From contig LUGG01000009.1 of assembly GCA_001683735.1 (NCBI GenBank), positions 1,550,001 to 1,614,000 on the forward strand: 64,000 nucleotides of DNA, read 5' to 3'. Position 1 is the stretch's first letter. Each line of letters begins with the position of its first letter. Below the pieces are notes generated by a model, which was not told the origin of the DNA, made no database searches, and saw only the letters and a program-made list of their open reading frames with translations. This stretch comes from Grifola frondosa (Eukaryota > Basidiomycota > Agaricomycetes > Polyporales > Grifolaceae). Positions 3,429 to 32,991 of the stretch are shown piece after piece. The position numbers and the translations under genes were made by a program.

Positions 3429-4091
3429 TGAGGATATGAGGAAGTTAAATAACAGGGCCCCAATAGATTCATAATATACTTTCATTTTCTGGGTCTCACG
3501 TATTGTATATTTTGTACTCGTAGTATTGTTACTCGTTGTGAAAATCGACGCTCCCTCTCCAGCTCACCTCGGAATGGCTCACAGACGCTAAAGGGACTCA
3601 TCATACGCAAGATTTGGGTAGAGTGACAACAATCTGCTGCCGTTGAAGATTGTCGGTATGTCGGCTCGCGAAGCTAGGGATGGTCTTTCCCAATTATAAA
3701 ATCCCATAGTGAAAGTTATCAGTAGTAAATACAAGTGGCGCTTTTGCCACATCTGGAGCGGCTGTGGCAGTGGCATGGCTTCTAACAAATATTTGTTTCG
3801 GAGTGGCATATACCACTAGGTGCCACCTGGCGGAAGCTCGCGTTTAACACTTACGGAGCCCGTGTTGGAGCTTGATTTCTAATTCCTATTCAGACCAATA
3901 TTATTAAAAGAAAGGGAGCGACGGTCACTTATAGTGTCAAATACAAAATATCAAGTAATGCACCCAGTACACGGAAATGAAAGATCGACCAAGTATCTAA
4001 CAAATAAAATGGAGCCCACTACTTTTAATGCCTGCATAAATAACTTAGTAGACACTCCCTCAGCAAGTCTCCGCATACCAATGCCTCGGGC
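3429..4091. other. Intergenic, nothing recognised
   Basis: AT-rich spacer between two genes that converge on it. It should hold both 3' ends. I see no repeat, RNA gene or conserved frame. Confidence 0.5.
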
Positions 4092-24658: not shown

Positions 24659-24667
24659 GGAAGGTGA

Positions 24668-24866
24668 CAGGCTCCTGCCCATCCTTACAGCTCGAGGGAG
24701 GGGCTGAATCTGAGTGGCGGAAATATGAGATATAATTAGAAACCATCCAGATTACATGTCAGAATTTAAACTCAGCACTCTTATTTTCCCCTACCTCTCC
24801 CCGACGGCTGGCAGGAAACATTGGTAAACAACAGCCACCCGCCGGGCGAATTCCCTATTGAGCAGT
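24668..24866 (+). repeat. Left terminal inverted repeat of the 8.3 kb transposon
   Basis: The inverted partner is at 32784-32982. The three differences are A/G or C/T transitions. The left copy ends at GAGCAGT, after which the two sequences diverge. Confidence 0.9.
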
Positions 24867-25006
24867 ATCGAGACCGGAGAATGCACAACTTCGGTCACAC
24901 ATTTGCAGCATGTCACACGTTTGCAGCGTGTTTTTGTCAGGAATATATTTTTGAGTTATTGTTGCACCTACCAATGCCTACTTGACTAAATCACTCACAA
25001 CTGGAT

Positions 25007-28000
25007 TGGATTGAAGCTCTGTTAGGGCACCACGGACTTCAGTTATCAAACATTCTCATGTCACTGCTAGAAATTCTGCAACATCCTCTTCTCACCCACC
25101 TTCTTCCTCACCTCAACGACATCTTATCAGCCTTTGAGTCTCATCACGCAACATCAGCGTTGGTATTGCAGCGGGCTAATATCTGGTGAAGAAGCAGCAT
25201 ACCACGGCTTTGCGTCAGTTGACCAAGAGGGAAAATGGATGGCACTTTAGTGTGCTTAGAGCCTCCGCACACAAAATTGTAGATTTTCGGATCGAAGACA
25301 TGGCCGGACAGATGAGAAGATCGCACCCGAGCTCTGGACATTAATCTCGTCGCTGTTATCCACTGGCATGAATCAAAATGATGATACACAGGATGTTGAC
25401 ATGAGATGTGATGACAATGACTCGGAGGAAGAGTATTGGCTGCGGCGATGAAGTATGGATGCCACCAGATGAAACGGATTATGCGAAGTCAGCGGATAAA
25501 AACCTCGAGAAAGAAGCATAGGAACATCGGCGATTATTGATAATGATCGTGAGTTGTCGGATTTCTGTGTTTATTAATAAATTAGTAACAATTAAACATG
25601 AAAAGAAAACAACCGTTGTAATCAGCATTCTCATGCAAAGTACAAACCAGCAATGTAACATGCTCTCGAGTGTTATCGGAATCTTCCTACATTCCTGTAA
25701 CACTCCGGAAAAGGTTGTCAAGACATTAGCGCATATGGGAGTCTCGATCTCGCTTAGATCCATTCACGACGCCATCCATTCTCTTTCATAGAGTGCAAAA
25801 GCTATCGAGAAACTCGGACAGTCCTTCGCAGCATATGCATACAACAACTTCGATGTGAAGTTGAACACACTTGTACCAACAGCAGAAAAGTCAACGAAAA
25901 TCTTCTACATCTACCTCTGGTGCCCTCCTCCATCTTGATCATGGTGTCACTGCCAATGACTTGAAATGTCGCAAGAGCTATGGGACAGAGTCCACTAAAT
26001 CCTATTGGAAGCCATCAGTATACCACGGAATATGGAGCATGCATCATCTTATTACCCTTCATCCTGAAACATCACATCATCCGGATTGACATCGTGGGCA
26101 ATTTAATGCATGGAAATTACTCCATGATCTCTGTACCCATGGGCCAGAGTACTTCCGTCAATATCTCCCTATGTTGATAGCACCTGAGTCATCGAGCAGT
26201 ACCAGTCAAGAAATTGGAGTACTTGCCCGCACGAGCAATGGACTCAATCATCAAAGGTTTCCGGTAACATCGAGGCCATAGCAAATCTCCTCCATCAGGG
26301 TGGTGTTGGAGATCCATCCGAAGTTATTGCGGAGACTGCAACGGGGGAGCAGGAGGTCCTTGATGTCCTTGATATTTCAGACCGTGTCATCATCATTCAC
26401 GGAGACCTAGGAACATCCGAACGTGATCAGTCAATCCTTAAACAACAAGCAATTGAGAGCACCCCATGGCGACGATACCAATTTGTCATATTTGTCATGG
26501 ACTCTTTCATGTCAAAATGGCTTGTGTGGATGCAATTTGGCAAATTTTCTTGGAACCAAAAGCTGCGCGTTGATACGAAGGCGCATGCTACGTGGATCAA
26601 TCTATTTTCGCATTCAAGCATCTGACGATCATGCAGAAGTCGCAGACCGAGTCGCACTTGCCGATTACGTCATCGCAGGTCACTTGCACAATAGTAACTG
26701 ACTTCGTTGCGACGTGCGATCAGCCGAACATAGGCTATCAAAGACTCCACACCCTTCGTACACACCAAAACTCATGCGATACGTCATTTAACCATTCAAA
26801 TTCACCACATGGAGACGTGCGATAGGTCGAAACACTTGTGACCCAATTGTTCGGCGTCCTACATGCATCTACCTGACGGATCACACGCGTCGAACTCTGA
26901 TCCCAGTCCTTTCGACTCCTACCCAGCCTTAGATTCTTCCCATAGCTGATTTAGCTGCGCCACGCGATTCTACACGTCAACGCGATGTCGCCACTATTGT
27001 CTGCGGTATATTCCGGACCGAACTACCGGTGCGACACGTTCCCCTTTACAATAAACGCCCCGAGAAGGCCGCGCGTCTACTCATGCGTACCTTCGCGTGT
27101 TTCGCGTGCCGGTGCAGTGCATGGCTATACGTGGCAGGTGTAGCAGTTCAGCCACCATACATTCTGTATTTCCATTTCCTTGATTTATCGTAGCTTACTT
27201 GTGTCGCGTTTCATCCCAGACTCTTGACATTATAGCGATTGACCTTTCCCTTACCAGCTATCATATTTCACAGGATATGTTGGTCGCAAGGCACTTGCGA
27301 TCGGCTTTTGATTCGTACTGAGGTCTTTTCGCATTTCAGATACATAGAATAGTTCATAAAAACTCATGTATAGTACGATATGAAGGAGATACGAGTTTCC
27401 CCCACAAGTACAGAGTTCAAAATCGCCGGCTTCACTTGCGATCGCGACCACTCTTCACTAAAAACTCTCCTCTCACTGCGAAACTGCGACCGCGATATTT
27501 GTGACTGTACGGATAAACCATCATACACACTGCGACTTCGAACCTACGATCAAGGAGACCTCTTTAGTTGCGATACGCGTGGAGTGCGCGAAGAACCGAT
27601 ATTGCTAAGCATTTACTTTTACCTTCTTCCGCGTTTCCCCTACCTCAGAGAAGTGCGATTCACGTGCGACTCGCGAGGATAACCAGTTACACAACTCGGT
27701 GCAAGGGACCTCTGCGAGAAATCGAGAGCCCATTCGCGCTATATCTCGTTGCTACTGACTTTACGGTCTATAGGATACATACTTGTTATTTTATAGGTTG
27801 GAGTCGGCAAGAGAGTATCAGCGTGATGACCCAGGCTGTCTCATGCAGATTATCGGCAAGTTACGACCAAAGGAAACTGGCAAAATTGGGTCCAGCCCAC
27901 AGTTTCGCCAGCTACATGAAGTTATCATGCACGCTGGCTTGGCACTTCGCTTGGATAGCTGGCGAGTCGAGGCGCAAAAGCGAAATCGTGATATCAAGAC

Positions 28001-28921
28001 ACTGGAGGATCTTGCGAACAAAAGGCCGACGCTAGAAGCACTCGAAGAGATCGCCAATCGCATCTCCCAGGACCATATTGCCGGGGAAGGTCTGGATATG
28101 TTTCGGTTACGAAATATGCCTGTATCAGCAAGGGATCAGCAGCGCGAAAACACAGTTCTATTACAACAGTACCTTCTGCTATACGAGAGAATGACCTATG
28201 CGATGAATGCGGGGGATATTGGAATGGTTGAAGCGGAATTTCCGGCTTGGATTGCACTATTCAAGGTGACCGGAAAACACAAGTACGCTACACAGATGAT
28301 AAGATTCTTGACGGATTTGCATTTTGTATATCCTGAAAAGCTACGGTTAGTAAGAATCAGATGCTCTCGAAGAAAGTACAATACTTACAAGTCCTTACAG
28401 CACTGCAATACGTTACAACATGCTTGTGAATCCAACAGGAAAACCGCATCATTCACGCGGAGTAGATTGGGTAATTGAGCTCATCAATCTGTACACGAAG
28501 GTAAGACAGTGATGTCAGTAGTCAGTGTTGTCTAACGCACGATGATCAGGACATGTACGGCGGAGAAGGCCCCAACTACACTAAGAACAGGATAATCACC
28601 GAGTCCCCTCTGGTTTTGCTGTTCCGCAGCGCACATGCCAACATCGAGAGAAACTTTCGTCTATCAGGCTTGACCTTTGCTCATGCGCAAAAGGATATCT
28701 CGCAGACACTGAAGAATGTATTATTATATTTGCAAGAGGCTGGCCCAAACGAGTTCAAAGCTGGCCGCAAAACGGCGCACGTCATCAAGGATATGTTGCG
28801 GATTGGTGAAGCAATGGTTGAGGCAGACACAGAAGCGAAGGGGAATGTGTTCGAGGATGATATTGATTCAACTAACGAGCTGCTGACAGCAGAGGACTTG
28901 AGCGTTGAAGACGCATTATAG
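25007..28921 (+). pseudogene. DUF6589-type gene, broken and interrupted
   Basis: An N-terminal part (WIEALLGHHGLQLSNIL, HKIVDFRIEDMAGQM) lies at 25007-25450. The middle (IGIFLHSCNTPEKVV, AYAYNNFDV, HLDHGVTANDLKC, VSGNIEAIANLLHQGGVGDP, IIIHGDLGT, IESTPWRRYQFVIFVM) lies at 25670-26575. The C-terminal part (LRPKETGKIG, MHAGLALRLDSWRVEA, YAMNAGDIGMVEAEFPAWI, KHKYATQMIRFL, PTGKPHHSRGVDWVIELI) lies at 27795-28921. I recognise the order as the basidiomycete DUF6589 family. About 1.2 kb of unrelated sequence separates the last two parts. Stops and frame changes occur throughout the first two. As the only other gene of the element, it is a transposase candidate; that is an inference. Confidence 0.72.
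26580..27790. other. Unexplained 1.2 kb inside the DUF6589 gene
   Basis: This interval separates EPKAAR from the continuing family sequence. It contains a loosely repeated TGCGA/GCGAC word pattern at about 27430-27690, and a plus-strand frame near 26945-27140 reading through RPEKAARLLMRTFACFAC. I cannot define its ends or find a target duplication. It may be an insertion, or an unusually long intron. Confidence 0.4.
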
Positions 28922-28951
28922 AGAATGTGCGTACATACCACTAGATAGTTT

Positions 28952-31900
28952 TTACACAGGCGGTGCATTCTCTTTTGACGCCGCTGAGGGCGCAACATAT
29001 TTAGGGCAGCTACGATTGCTTCCTGTAGAAGGTAATATCGATTTTAGTGCCTTGAACACGAAATGAAGAATACATACGGATGTGCCCTTTGTTTCCGCAA
29101 GCGCTACAAGTGCGCGGTGCAACCCGGCTCGGTGTGCTTGCAGCGACAGTCTGCGCAACAAGCGCTGTGTGAGAGGAAGTCGGCTGAGGTATAAGCCTCT
29201 GTAGTGGTGTGGACACAAAGGGAGAGGCCACGGGGGCATGCGGAAAGCACCTAAATCGAGTGAGTGACATTAGGTCAACACATCTGAAGCAAAATCACTC
29301 ACTGATTAATCAAACCAAGCACATCAGCACCATATTCAAAGGCCCTATTCCACTTCGTCTCTCGATGAAGGTCCTCAAGATCCTTGATTTTCTGCGTGCG
29401 CGCACAGTCGACAATACGCATGAGAATGTCATCAGACATTACAGATCCTGGCCCAGCATTCTTCAAGTGCACTTCCCCGAGAATAGCTCTGACGCGATCT
29501 CTGCGGAAATTGTCCAATACCAGCTGAAGTTCTTGTTCAGGAGGACCCATACTGTATGTTTTGATGATGCGAGAGGCCCGACGCACAGGATCTTGGGTGG
29601 TGGCGCGGGGTTTTGCAAAGTCGGAAAAATGGGCAGGCATGCAGAGTTCACAGCACACAGCAGAGAGAACGAGTCTACAGCGAGCGCAACCAGCTGGTAG
29701 ATCGGGTCGACACTCGTGATGGTTGGATGCTATCAACGACGCGTGAGTAAATAGAGCGCCCGTTCTCGCGCGGTCAACACATACCAATTTTGTCGCTTCC
29801 GTAGTATGCCTTGATTGGAATCCTGTAACATTGAACCTTCCGCAACGATGCGTTGATGAGACTATCCATCTCTGGCCCAATGCAGCTGTCAGAAATCTTC
29901 TTCCTGTTGGTCTGGCTTCTCTTCGAGTCTTCAGCTGCTTGGGCTTTATACACTTCTGGAGCTTCTCGTACTGGTTGGGTGACTTGGAGTTCGACGTCTG
30001 TGTCTCTTTCTCATTCTGGCTCGATGACTCAAATGGTCTATCTCTAGGCATTTGCACCTCCAAGCGCAAGTCGCGGCTGGAGCCTGCTATGGGCGCACCA
30101 ATCAGGTCGCCTGCACTCCGGCTCGATGACTCGGACGTCCGTCTCTGGACGTTTGCACCCCCAGGTGCGGGTCGTGGCTGGGGCCTGCCATAGGTGTGTC
30201 GATCACGTCGTCTGCGTTCGTGGGATTGGAGAGGCTATAGACGTCGAAAGAGGAGAGGCTATAGCCGTCGAAAGAAAGGGATTGTTCGGCAACAAGCCGA
30301 GCGTTGTGTGAACGGTATAGCATTGGCTGATTAGCATGCCCGTCGTGTAGTCTTGCCGAAGTATCCACGACGGCTTGCTTCGCAGGTCTTCCTGAAGGGA
30401 GACTCTCTGTCGCCTTTCTTTTCATACTCCCCTGCTTCTTCGCTGCAGCTTTCGCTGCACTTTCTTTCTTCTTCTCTTTTTCATCATCGAAATACTTTCC
30501 TTCCGCAAATAACACTGCTGTTCCGAACAGATCAGGCCGACGCACTGCACGCCCGAAGCGCTGCCACAGCGTGTTTAGATCACAGGTCACCCGCCACTGG
30601 ACGACTATCTTGATATCTGGTATATCTACACCCTAGATTGAATGTCGTTAGTAGTGAGTTTTTTCTAGTTCAAAAAACCTCTTACCATGCCAAATGAATC
30701 TGTACAGTATAATCCACAAAGCTTGTCTTCCTTGTAATCCGACGTTGCCTGCTCGCGAAACTGAGATGTCATATCCGAGTTGAACCATTTTATTTTATCC
30801 CTGTGTTCGGCTGGAAGCCTTTTGCGTAGTGCGTGTGCGGCATTGATTGACTCATCAATACTATCGAAGAAGACGAGGAATTTCGGAAGCTTGTCGCCAG
30901 GTTTCCAGTCCTCGGGTATCAAGAAAGCCAGGTCTTCGAAGCTAGACTGTGCGTGCTTGATCTTACGAACAACAAGATGAATATTAGGGCGATCATTTGA
31001 GTGCTGAAAGAGTAATGTTTGCGCCAGGTCCATTCGGAGGGTGTTCATGACATCCTTGCGAACGTCATCTGGCAGCGTAGCTGAGGGAACATAATAGGGA
31101 ATATCCTTCGGAATCATATAGTGGAGGCGACCTGCATCCTTGTATTCCGGGCGAAAATGGCTCCATGCGCTGACGCAGTGGCCTTCATCCCATGTTATGC
31201 TAATGAGTCATGATGTGAAGTCGGGATTTTTCCAGAGTCTCTCACAACTTCCTTTCTCCTTCAATGCTTCGTTTGGATTTATTACGACGGCACGATATTT
31301 GCCATCCTCGATGTCCTACAAACATAATTAATTGTTGTCATACTTCAACGTTCGGACATTCAAACACATACCTTCCAATTTTGGACAGTCGCAGTCTCGG
31401 CTCGAATTGCAATTGCACTAATTCCGAGTTCCTTGAGCTGTTGCTTATTTTGTGTACCTAAAATATTTAACGGTGTGATAACAATCTGGATGCCATTTGG
31501 TCGAAAAAGCAATGGCATCCAGAAAGTCAATGTCTTCCCGGATCCCGTTCCTGCGACACACATAACATCCTTGTCACGTCGGAGAAGCGCCTGGGTCACG
31601 TTTGCTTGCCATAGGCACAGTCCACTGAGGGGAACTACCAATGTTTCCACCGGAAACATAGTGATATTGTTGTAAACTTAGATTAATAATTTCAAGGTGA
31701 AATTTATGATTACATTGTAATATTGTTTAAAATGCTTCCGGAACAAGTCCCAAGATAATAACAGAATGTAATCTAGCAATACATAGTAAAAACATCATAT
31801 ATGTTTTATTGGTTTTTTCTCATGAACACATTTTGACTGGGATTATGAGATGTTTCCACATAACATATTTTGATTTTCTTGTGGATACATATATAACATT

Positions 31901-32726
31901 TTGCTAAGAACTGTTTAGAATGGGTTTTCAATGTGTATCAAATATTCCCGGTGATTTTATTCAGAATGTGATCACTATGGCATCTGAAATATTATTGCAA
32001 AACATATTTAAAATGTTATCAAGATGTTGACTTTATGCATATCCGGAAAACATTCAGAAAACATCGAAAAGTCAATTAAAATGTATTCCGTGGAATCGTG
32101 TATGATTCGCACGATTCATATGTGAGATTTGAGTCACGTGTCACAGTCAGAAATGTATCCACAGAATACATTTTAATTGACTTTTCGATGTTTTCTGAAT
32201 GTTTTCCGGATATGCATAAAGTCAACATCTTGATAACATTTTAAATATGTTTTGCAATAATATTTCAGATGCCATAGTGATCACATTCTGAATAAAATCA
32301 CCGGGAATATTTGATACACATTGAAAACCCATTCTAAAACAGTTCTTAGCAAAATGTTATATATGTATCCACAAGAAAATCAAAATATGTTATGTGGAAA
32401 CATCTCATAATCCCAGTCAAAATGTGTTCATGAGAAAAAACCAATAAAACATATATGATGTTTTTACTATGTATTGCTAGATTACATTCTGTTATTATCT
32501 TGGGACTTGTTCCGGAAGCATTTTAAACAATATTACAATGTAATCATAAATTTCACCTTGAAATTATTTAATCTAAGTTTACAACAATATCACTATGTTT
32601 CCGGTGGAAACATTGGTAGTTCCCCTCAGTGAGTCGACAGCCTAGAAGTTGAGAAGATTTTTCGCGGATATTATCGACTGAAGGGACATCGGCAGTATGA
32701 GCAGCCATCGTGAGCGAAGTATACAT
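28952..32726 (-). pseudogene. RecQ-like DEAD-type helicase gene, interrupted by hairpin element
   Basis: The gene starts at 32726 (MYTSLTMAAHTADVPSVD). The core follows the hairpin element: WQANVTQALL, VAGTGSGKTLTFW (motif I), WDEGHCVSAW (motif II, DEGH), YVPSATLP (motif III), SDFG-like TDSFGMGVDIPDIKIVVQW, and WQRFGRAVRRPDLFGTA (motif VI). The C-terminal region has a Cys-rich segment (ECRPDLPAGCARC, CCELC) and ends with a CSACGNKGH zinc knuckle plus CPKY. Introns follow 31372, 30686 and the knuckle. Damage consists of the element at 31623-32631 in the coding exon, an in-frame TGA at 31210-31208 where the family has Arg (CGA), and frame changes near 30100-30000. Such RecQ-like genes are multicopy in basidiomycetes. 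Confidence 0.82.
31619..32635. mobile_element. 1,009-bp hairpin (foldback) element with 4-bp TSD
   Basis: Element 31623-32631 begins CACTGAGGGGAACTACCAAT and ends with its exact reverse complement. AGTC duplicates the target at 31619-31622 and 32632-32635. The arms, about 473 bp each, are inverted copies of one another around a loop of about 63 bp (32096-32158). Removing the element and one AGTC restores the helicase reading frame exactly (GCRL then CLWQA). CACTG ends with a short duplication fit a CACTA/EnSpm-like non-autonomous element. No coding capacity is visible. I noticed no arm difference other than single-base run-length changes and about one substitution near the loop. Confidence 0.9.
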
Positions 32727-32783
32727 CGGACAAAAATTTATTACCCAGAGATGTGACAGCCACAATATTTCTCGGCTCCCCTC

Positions 32784-32982
32784 ACTGCTCAATAGGGAAT
32801 TCACCCGGCGGGTGGCTGTTGTTTACCAATGTTTCCTGCCAGCCGTCGGGGAGAGGTAGGGGAAAATAAGAGTGCTGAGTTTAAATTCTGACATGTAATC
32901 TGGATGGTTTCTAATTATATCTCATATTTCCGCCACTCGGATTCAGCCCCTCCCTCGAGCCGTAAGGATGGGCAGGAGCCTG
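32784..32982 (-). repeat. Right terminal inverted repeat of the 8.3 kb transposon
   Basis: Reverse complement of 24668-24866. It ends with ...GGAGCCTG at 32982 and is followed directly by the duplicated GGAAGGTGA. The helicase start codon lies about 60 bp inside it, so the promoter of that gene may sit in the repeat. Confidence 0.9.
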
Positions 32983-32991
32983 GGAAGGTGA

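Follow-up and report, generated by a model that had tools for sequence, protein, structure and literature searches.

The Grifola frondosa genome holds, in a stretch of 64,000 nucleotides (contig LUGG01000009.1, positions 1,550,001 to 1,614,000; hereafter the window), an 8,315-bp element at 24668-32982 that is very likely a DNA transposon of the AcademH type, with a DUF6589 protein as its DDE transposase and a convergent RecQ-type helicase as its second gene. As read from the assembled sequence, both genes recur together in this genome with terminal inverted repeats (TIRs) and 9-bp target site duplications (TSDs), and two nested insertions rejoin cleanly once the inserted element is removed.

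The span 24659-32991 takes in the element together with both copies of its TSD (Table 1). The element terminates in CAGG...CCTG, and the two TIR arms differ at three positions (22, 44 and 180 of the TIR). When flanking repeats of 1 to 15 bp were compared, only the 9-bp repeat was perfect. A first-pass annotation of the window had given the same ends and the same perfect duplication exactly outside them; it had put the inverted termini at 199 bp, and here the repeat itself stands but its true length is 190 bp, the larger figure counting the 9-bp TSD in. For the left TIR, relatives were found at C9, C18, C2 and C26.

A genome search for DUF6589 returned at least 34 exon matches, all 30 candidates having been scored, which we grouped into 13 loci; the same family had no match in any of 14 control genomes. 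The helicase adjoins 12 of these 13 loci and is convergent each time (11 by helicase exon search; C20 by DNA or tblastn), the thirteenth (C2 575-579 kb) being a fragment beside which no helicase was seen. Helicase matches without DUF6589 occur at two places examined, C32 and C2 3174-3179 kb. By scanning for inverted termini with 7-10 bp direct repeats, searching for terminal motifs and taking in further flanking DNA, we mapped both ends of 14 elements. Nine carry both genes within TIRs flanked by 9-bp duplications, the arrangement for which the first-pass annotation had proposed to look; one (C32) carries the helicase only, one (C18) a helicase fragment and three neither gene. All 14 have a 9-bp TSD, of varying sequence, perfect in 13 and with a single mismatch in the other (C2 3478 kb). 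In those 13, any further perfect repeat at the flanks measures 2 bp at most. As a control for chance, 273,586 pairs of positions were drawn at random from the same loci, and 4 of them had a perfect 9-mer in the placement of a TSD. At C7, C12 and C26 a single end was recognised, their second ends not being found by the terminus scan, the motif search or in further flanking DNA, and L056 has none.

The ends fall into two classes, CAGG/CAGC (C8, C9, C26, C2, C21, C18 and C2 3478 kb) and TAGTCTCG (the remaining elements); the C21 end, CAGGCTCCTAAAACCAGCCG, has a ACCAGCCG block in common with the second class. These classes track two protein subgroups, GDLxT versus GDQLT, where the motif was found; no such motif was found in C9, which groups with the window copy by DNA. 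DUF6589 and helicase identities are correlated across 14 of 17 units (Mantel r 0.72, reached by 2 of 5,000 permutations), a correlation for much of which the split into two subgroups accounts and in which identities that were not found, or that came from alignments shorter than 40 residues, were set to 20%; C7, C12 and C3 1745 kb were left out because their transposase piece is too short. Two TIR queries of the TAGTCTCG type gave at least 47 and at least 43 genomic matches. These numbers are far above the count of DUF6589 loci, so many gene-less copies with such ends probably exist.

Outside Grifola, five pairs of DUF6589 and helicase matches agree in species and contig size, as judged by eye among the listed matches: Rhodofomes roseus (contig 36,130; gene numbers g6060 and g6058), Amylocystis lapponica (494,147), Ganoderma leucocontextum (98,143) and, on each of two contigs, Auriscalpium vulgare (411,380 and 12,829). 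Such agreement would put both genes on one contig, and on the long contigs not necessarily close together.

Two nested insertions supply empty sites: a full element at C10 634 kb interrupts a TIR-only element of 160 bp (the outer one, read by eye), and an element of 663 bp at C3 1752 kb interrupts a TIR of the element at C3 1745 kb. With the insert and one 9-bp copy taken out, both sites align without a gap at the joint to an uninterrupted paralogue, with a few substitutions at C10 634 kb and two one-base gaps away from the joint at C3 1752 kb. Together, pairing at 12 of 13 loci, both genes in nine of 14 elements, two clean empty sites and a DUF6589 model that matches DDE transposases (see below) support the first-pass proposal of a single mobile system with DUF6589 as candidate transposase. 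As a separate observation, 2 of the 14 mapped insertions fall within TIRs of their own class and another element begins 27 bp from its neighbour (nested or adjacent insertions at L043 1696-7913, L049+L053 10388-11050 and L041 7764-8717), which hints that the elements may target themselves.

Several lines of prediction point to DUF6589 (PF20231) as the transposase. In an alignment of 57 DUF6589 proteins (A1), D271, N272, D274 and D456 are invariant, and a D-W-x-V-E motif follows wherever the gene models extend far enough. The AlphaFold model of the DUF6589 protein P0013 (mean predicted local distance difference test score, 81) has D271 on its first beta strand and D456 shortly past a later one, while E697 falls in a late helix that a long helical region precedes. 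DDE enzymes that contain an insertion domain are expected to show this order; P0013 apparently lacks a stretch immediately before the Glu motif. A Foldseek search with this model returned transposases in all of the top eight PDB rows, with E < 0.001 for the first only and unrelated rows after them. VIA-align gave 9.6 and 9.2 for the P element, 7.6 to 5.8 for Hermes, 6.2 for Transib, 5.7 for ISCth4, 5.5 for Tn5 and 5.2 for RAG1. The comparison with RNase H-fold transposases that the first-pass annotation had raised turns out in favour of DUF6589: the model matches DDE transposases. Searched against PDB sequences, the A1 profile found nothing meaningful (8 distinct sequences with E of at most 1, the best at 0.16), and the fold therefore rests on prediction. 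DUF6589 is thus predicted to have the DDD/E residues and RNase H fold of a transposase, which supports a DDE assignment. Pfam scans of eight window ORFs (open reading frames) and four C2 ORFs revealed no other transposase. No animal relative with an XPG nuclease, of the sort that would link DUF6589 with Academ, appeared, the named rows among the 120 listed of 203 A1-profile matches being from fungi alone; that search scored just the 7,994 candidates with the most shared words and does not imply the absence of non-fungal relatives.

The nearest solved folds to the DUF6589 model are those of the P element and Hermes (hAT) transposases, both of which have a helical insert before the last Glu, as the model does. 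P element and Hermes transposons have 8-bp TSDs and no helicase, whereas DUF6589 elements have 9-bp TSDs and a helicase, and no C/DxxH was seen at the invariant His of A1. In P0013 the residues three positions before the conserved His 491 and the invariant His 542 are Gly 488 and Arg 539, in this single alignment of 57 proteins. A C/DxxH motif between the second D and the last E is attributed, in the available excerpt of PMC9587614, to the group of hAT, P, MuDR, Kolobok and Dada.

The second gene is, by profile, a RecQ-like helicase. In the window copy one ORF matches DEAD and another Helicase_C (E 8.1e-4, below cut-off), and the motifs GTGSGKT, DEGH and a C-terminal CxxCGxxGH can be read. TIGR00614 matches two of two window ORFs (Table 1) and two of three C2 ORFs (E 1.3e-28 and 1.1e-6), all under the curated cut-off, which is to be expected for pieces of exon size. 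One C2 helicase exon matched solved chains of RecQ, WRN, BLM and RECQ1. Five whole relatives all have DEAD and Helicase_C, and two of the five have a PF15288 zinc knuckle, below cut-off; at a threshold of E 0.01, RecQ zinc-binding, RQC and HRDC domains were not found in these five.

The copy in the window is decayed. It has DUF6589 on the + strand and the helicase on the − strand; the genes converge and the ends are clean, as the first-pass annotation had said. What that annotation missed is that both genes are interrupted and broken, and that the codon of the first catalytic Asp reads AAC (Asn), where C9 has GAC. DUF6589 matches three ORFs and contains a repeat of about 1.25 kb with 42 matches in the genome; several of these are paired at a spacing of 10.5-10.6 kb, and the insert is probably a solo long terminal repeat (LTR). 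The helicase is split by a second insertion. A sister copy, C9, has neither insert. Its DUF6589 gene is short of 346 bp, and one of its TIRs contains additional DNA. We considered the 346-bp stretch (element 3448-3793) as a further insert in the window copy and rejected this in favour of a deletion in C9, because the stretch encodes conserved DUF6589 residues. Given an Asn codon in place of the presumed first catalytic Asp, the insert in DUF6589 and the split helicase, the window copy is not expected to work alone; to judge from these lesions it is a dead relic, at best mobilised by proteins from other copies.

Table 1 Features of the element in the window (positions in the 64,000-nucleotide stretch)
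Feature	Position	Strand	Remarks
Left 9-bp TSD	24659..24667	.	GGAAGGTGA; identical to 32983-32991
Left 190-bp TIR	24668..24857	+	starts CAGGCTCCTGCCCA; 187/190 identical to right TIR
Presumed first catalytic Asp codon (Y-D-N-F-D)	25843..25845	+	AAC (Asn) in window copy, GAC (Asp) in C9; D271 column of A1, invariant
DUF6589 ORF with presumed second catalytic Asp, GDLGT (codon 26404-26406)	26188..26625	+	E 1.7e-11, profile 79-178; final stretch enters the ~1.25-kb insert
~1.25-kb insert in DUF6589	~26571..27821 (approximate bounds)	.	repeat; absent from C9
DUF6589 ORF	27774..28478	+	E 4.7e-36, profile 166-334; opening stretch within insert
Presumed third acidic motif, DWVIELIN (Glu codon 28477-28479)	28465..28488	+	different frame, past an intron inferred by reading the sequence
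C-terminal part of DUF6589 gene	28505..28921	+	weak: E 0.023, profile 365-406, below cut-off
RecQ-like helicase, main part, several exons	29010..31622 (approximate ends)	-	PF00270 (DEAD) E 4.5e-11; TIGR00614 E 1.8e-14, 6.9e-9
1,009-bp palindromic element, CACTG ends, TSD AGTC	31623..32631	.	splits helicase; absent from C9; left arm has 26 genome matches
Helicase N-terminal coding piece (ATG 32708-32706)	32636..32708	-	read from sequence; within stretch aligning to C9
Right 190-bp TIR	32793..32982	-	pairs with left TIR
Right 9-bp TSD	32983..32991	.	GGAAGGTGA; identical to left TSD

We hypothesize that DUF6589, through an RNase H fold with Asp, Asp and Glu, would bind and pair the two long TIRs, free the ends and join them to target DNA at a 9-base stagger, and that host repair would then fill the staggered gaps to give the 9-bp duplication. 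The RecQ-type helicase, with its C-terminal zinc knuckle, would probably unwind DNA near the ends or in the course of repair synthesis, which it may drive, and by family its polarity would be 3'-5'. Catalysis by DUF6589, the step taken by the helicase and the name AcademH are what we infer, and we take the helicase to be a helper of transposition. One copy, C21 134560-143019 (L047+L048), has inverted arms of 3,339 bp that are 100% identical and begin exactly at the TIR, with a DUF6589 gene in each arm, a single helicase between them and a perfect 9-bp TSD outside; the second DUF6589 copy, which shares the strand of the helicase, derives from the duplicated arm. The arms are possibly an assembly error. 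Taken at face value, they and the internal deletion forms at C32 and C18 fit interrupted or template-switching gap repair, a fit that does not prove a role for the helicase.

AcademH was reportedly described by Kojima in 2020 within the Academ superfamily. In the excerpts available of the papers cited here, TSDs are 9 or 10 bp in AcademH and 3 or 4 bp in AcademX, a difference tied to helicase and nuclease (PMC10045372); AcademH is low-copy in Basidiomycota, Ascomycota and Mucoromycota (PMC10799480); and most fungal Academ copies (1,568 of 1,938) have recognisable domains, for example DEAD and recQ_fam, and frequently bear host-gene annotations (PMC6416283). DUF6589 elements have in common with AcademH a helicase alongside a transposase and TSDs of 9-10 bp (PMC10045372), hosts in the Basidiomycota (PMC10799480) and the DEAD/recQ_fam helicase of fungal Academ (PMC6416283). 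Each testable AcademH feature is present, namely a TSD of that length in all 14 two-ended elements (three further loci being one-ended), a DEAD/Helicase_C helicase of the RecQ family (PMC10799480, PMC6416283), TIRs and, by prediction, a DDD/E transposase with RNase H fold, and for this reason we regard the element as a probable AcademH member. The likeness seen covers helicase, TSD, TIRs, predicted fold and hosts. AcademX, with its TSD of 3 or 4 bp (PMC10045372), was rejected on the 9-bp TSD found here. The weak point of the first-pass annotation is its suggestion that the pairing was undescribed: fungal Academ and AcademH elements that have TSDs of 9-10 bp and a helicase of RecQ type are in print, according to the same excerpts (PMC6416283, PMC10045372, PMC10799480). 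DUF6589 is not named anywhere in the open-licence literature searched, and relative to that literature the link between DUF6589 and the AcademH group may be an addition.

The strongest competitor to AcademH membership is that DUF6589 lacks homology to the Academ transposase and forms a separate DDE superfamily, which recruited a RecQ helicase independently, as in KolobokH. Two points weigh on its side: the assignment of DUF6589 to AcademH draws on features other than transposase sequence, and the family goes unnamed in the literature searched. Against it, AcademH agrees, in the excerpts available, in its hosts, its kind of helicase and the length of its TSDs, and it is less likely that all three would recur in another, unrelated group; we consider such a superfamily improbable. 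Slightly less probable again is a separate DUF6589 superfamily in which a dedicated RecQ-type helicase, inherited within a two-gene transposition machinery, would couple strand transfer to repair synthesis, with the C21 arms as a product.

Mutator and Mutator-like elements (MULEs) classically have 9-bp TSDs and TIRs near 200 bp, and the long TIRs and 9-bp TSDs of DUF6589 elements would suit a MULE that had captured a helicase. The MULE transposase domain, by which such elements are recognised, is however not found in DUF6589: in Pfam scans that admitted E values up to 0.1, neither eight ORFs of the window nor four DUF6589 proteins of full length matched MULE or Transposase_mut, the scans yielding DUF6589 and unrelated sub-threshold matches only, and C/DxxH was not seen at the invariant His of A1. 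We reject this reading as very unlikely. KolobokH comes close in content, being found only in fungi and combining a DDE transposase with a RecQ helicase, but Kolobok TSDs are TTAA, of 4 bp (PMC9587614, in excerpt), whereas all 14 TSDs here are 9 bp of varied sequence and the genes converge; we reject it too and give it hardly any weight. That both are host genes lying in repeats, neighbours by chance and moved by a third transposase, would suit their listing in databases as ordinary proteins and the existence of same-ended copies with neither gene, but chance neighbourhood is rejected by the pair at 12 of 13 loci, the CAGG and TAGT end classes follow two subgroups of both proteins and the Pfam scans of the window and C2 copies showed no other transposase, leaving this reading a negligible probability.

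For annotation, the Pfam family DUF6589 gains a suggested function, that of a DDE transposase; one search gave 830 homologues at E 1e-5 or better, and the named rows inspected are hypothetical proteins of mushroom-forming fungi. A role in the element is likewise suggested for the multicopy RecQ-like genes beside DUF6589, some of which carry ordinary RecQ helicase names in databases. The mapped ends and empty sites are material for asking what a transposon-encoded helicase does. P0162, from Ganoderma boninense, bears the UniRef name 'ATP-dependent RNA helicase CshA' and has PF20231 as its sole precomputed Pfam domain; its helicase name is possibly a naming error.
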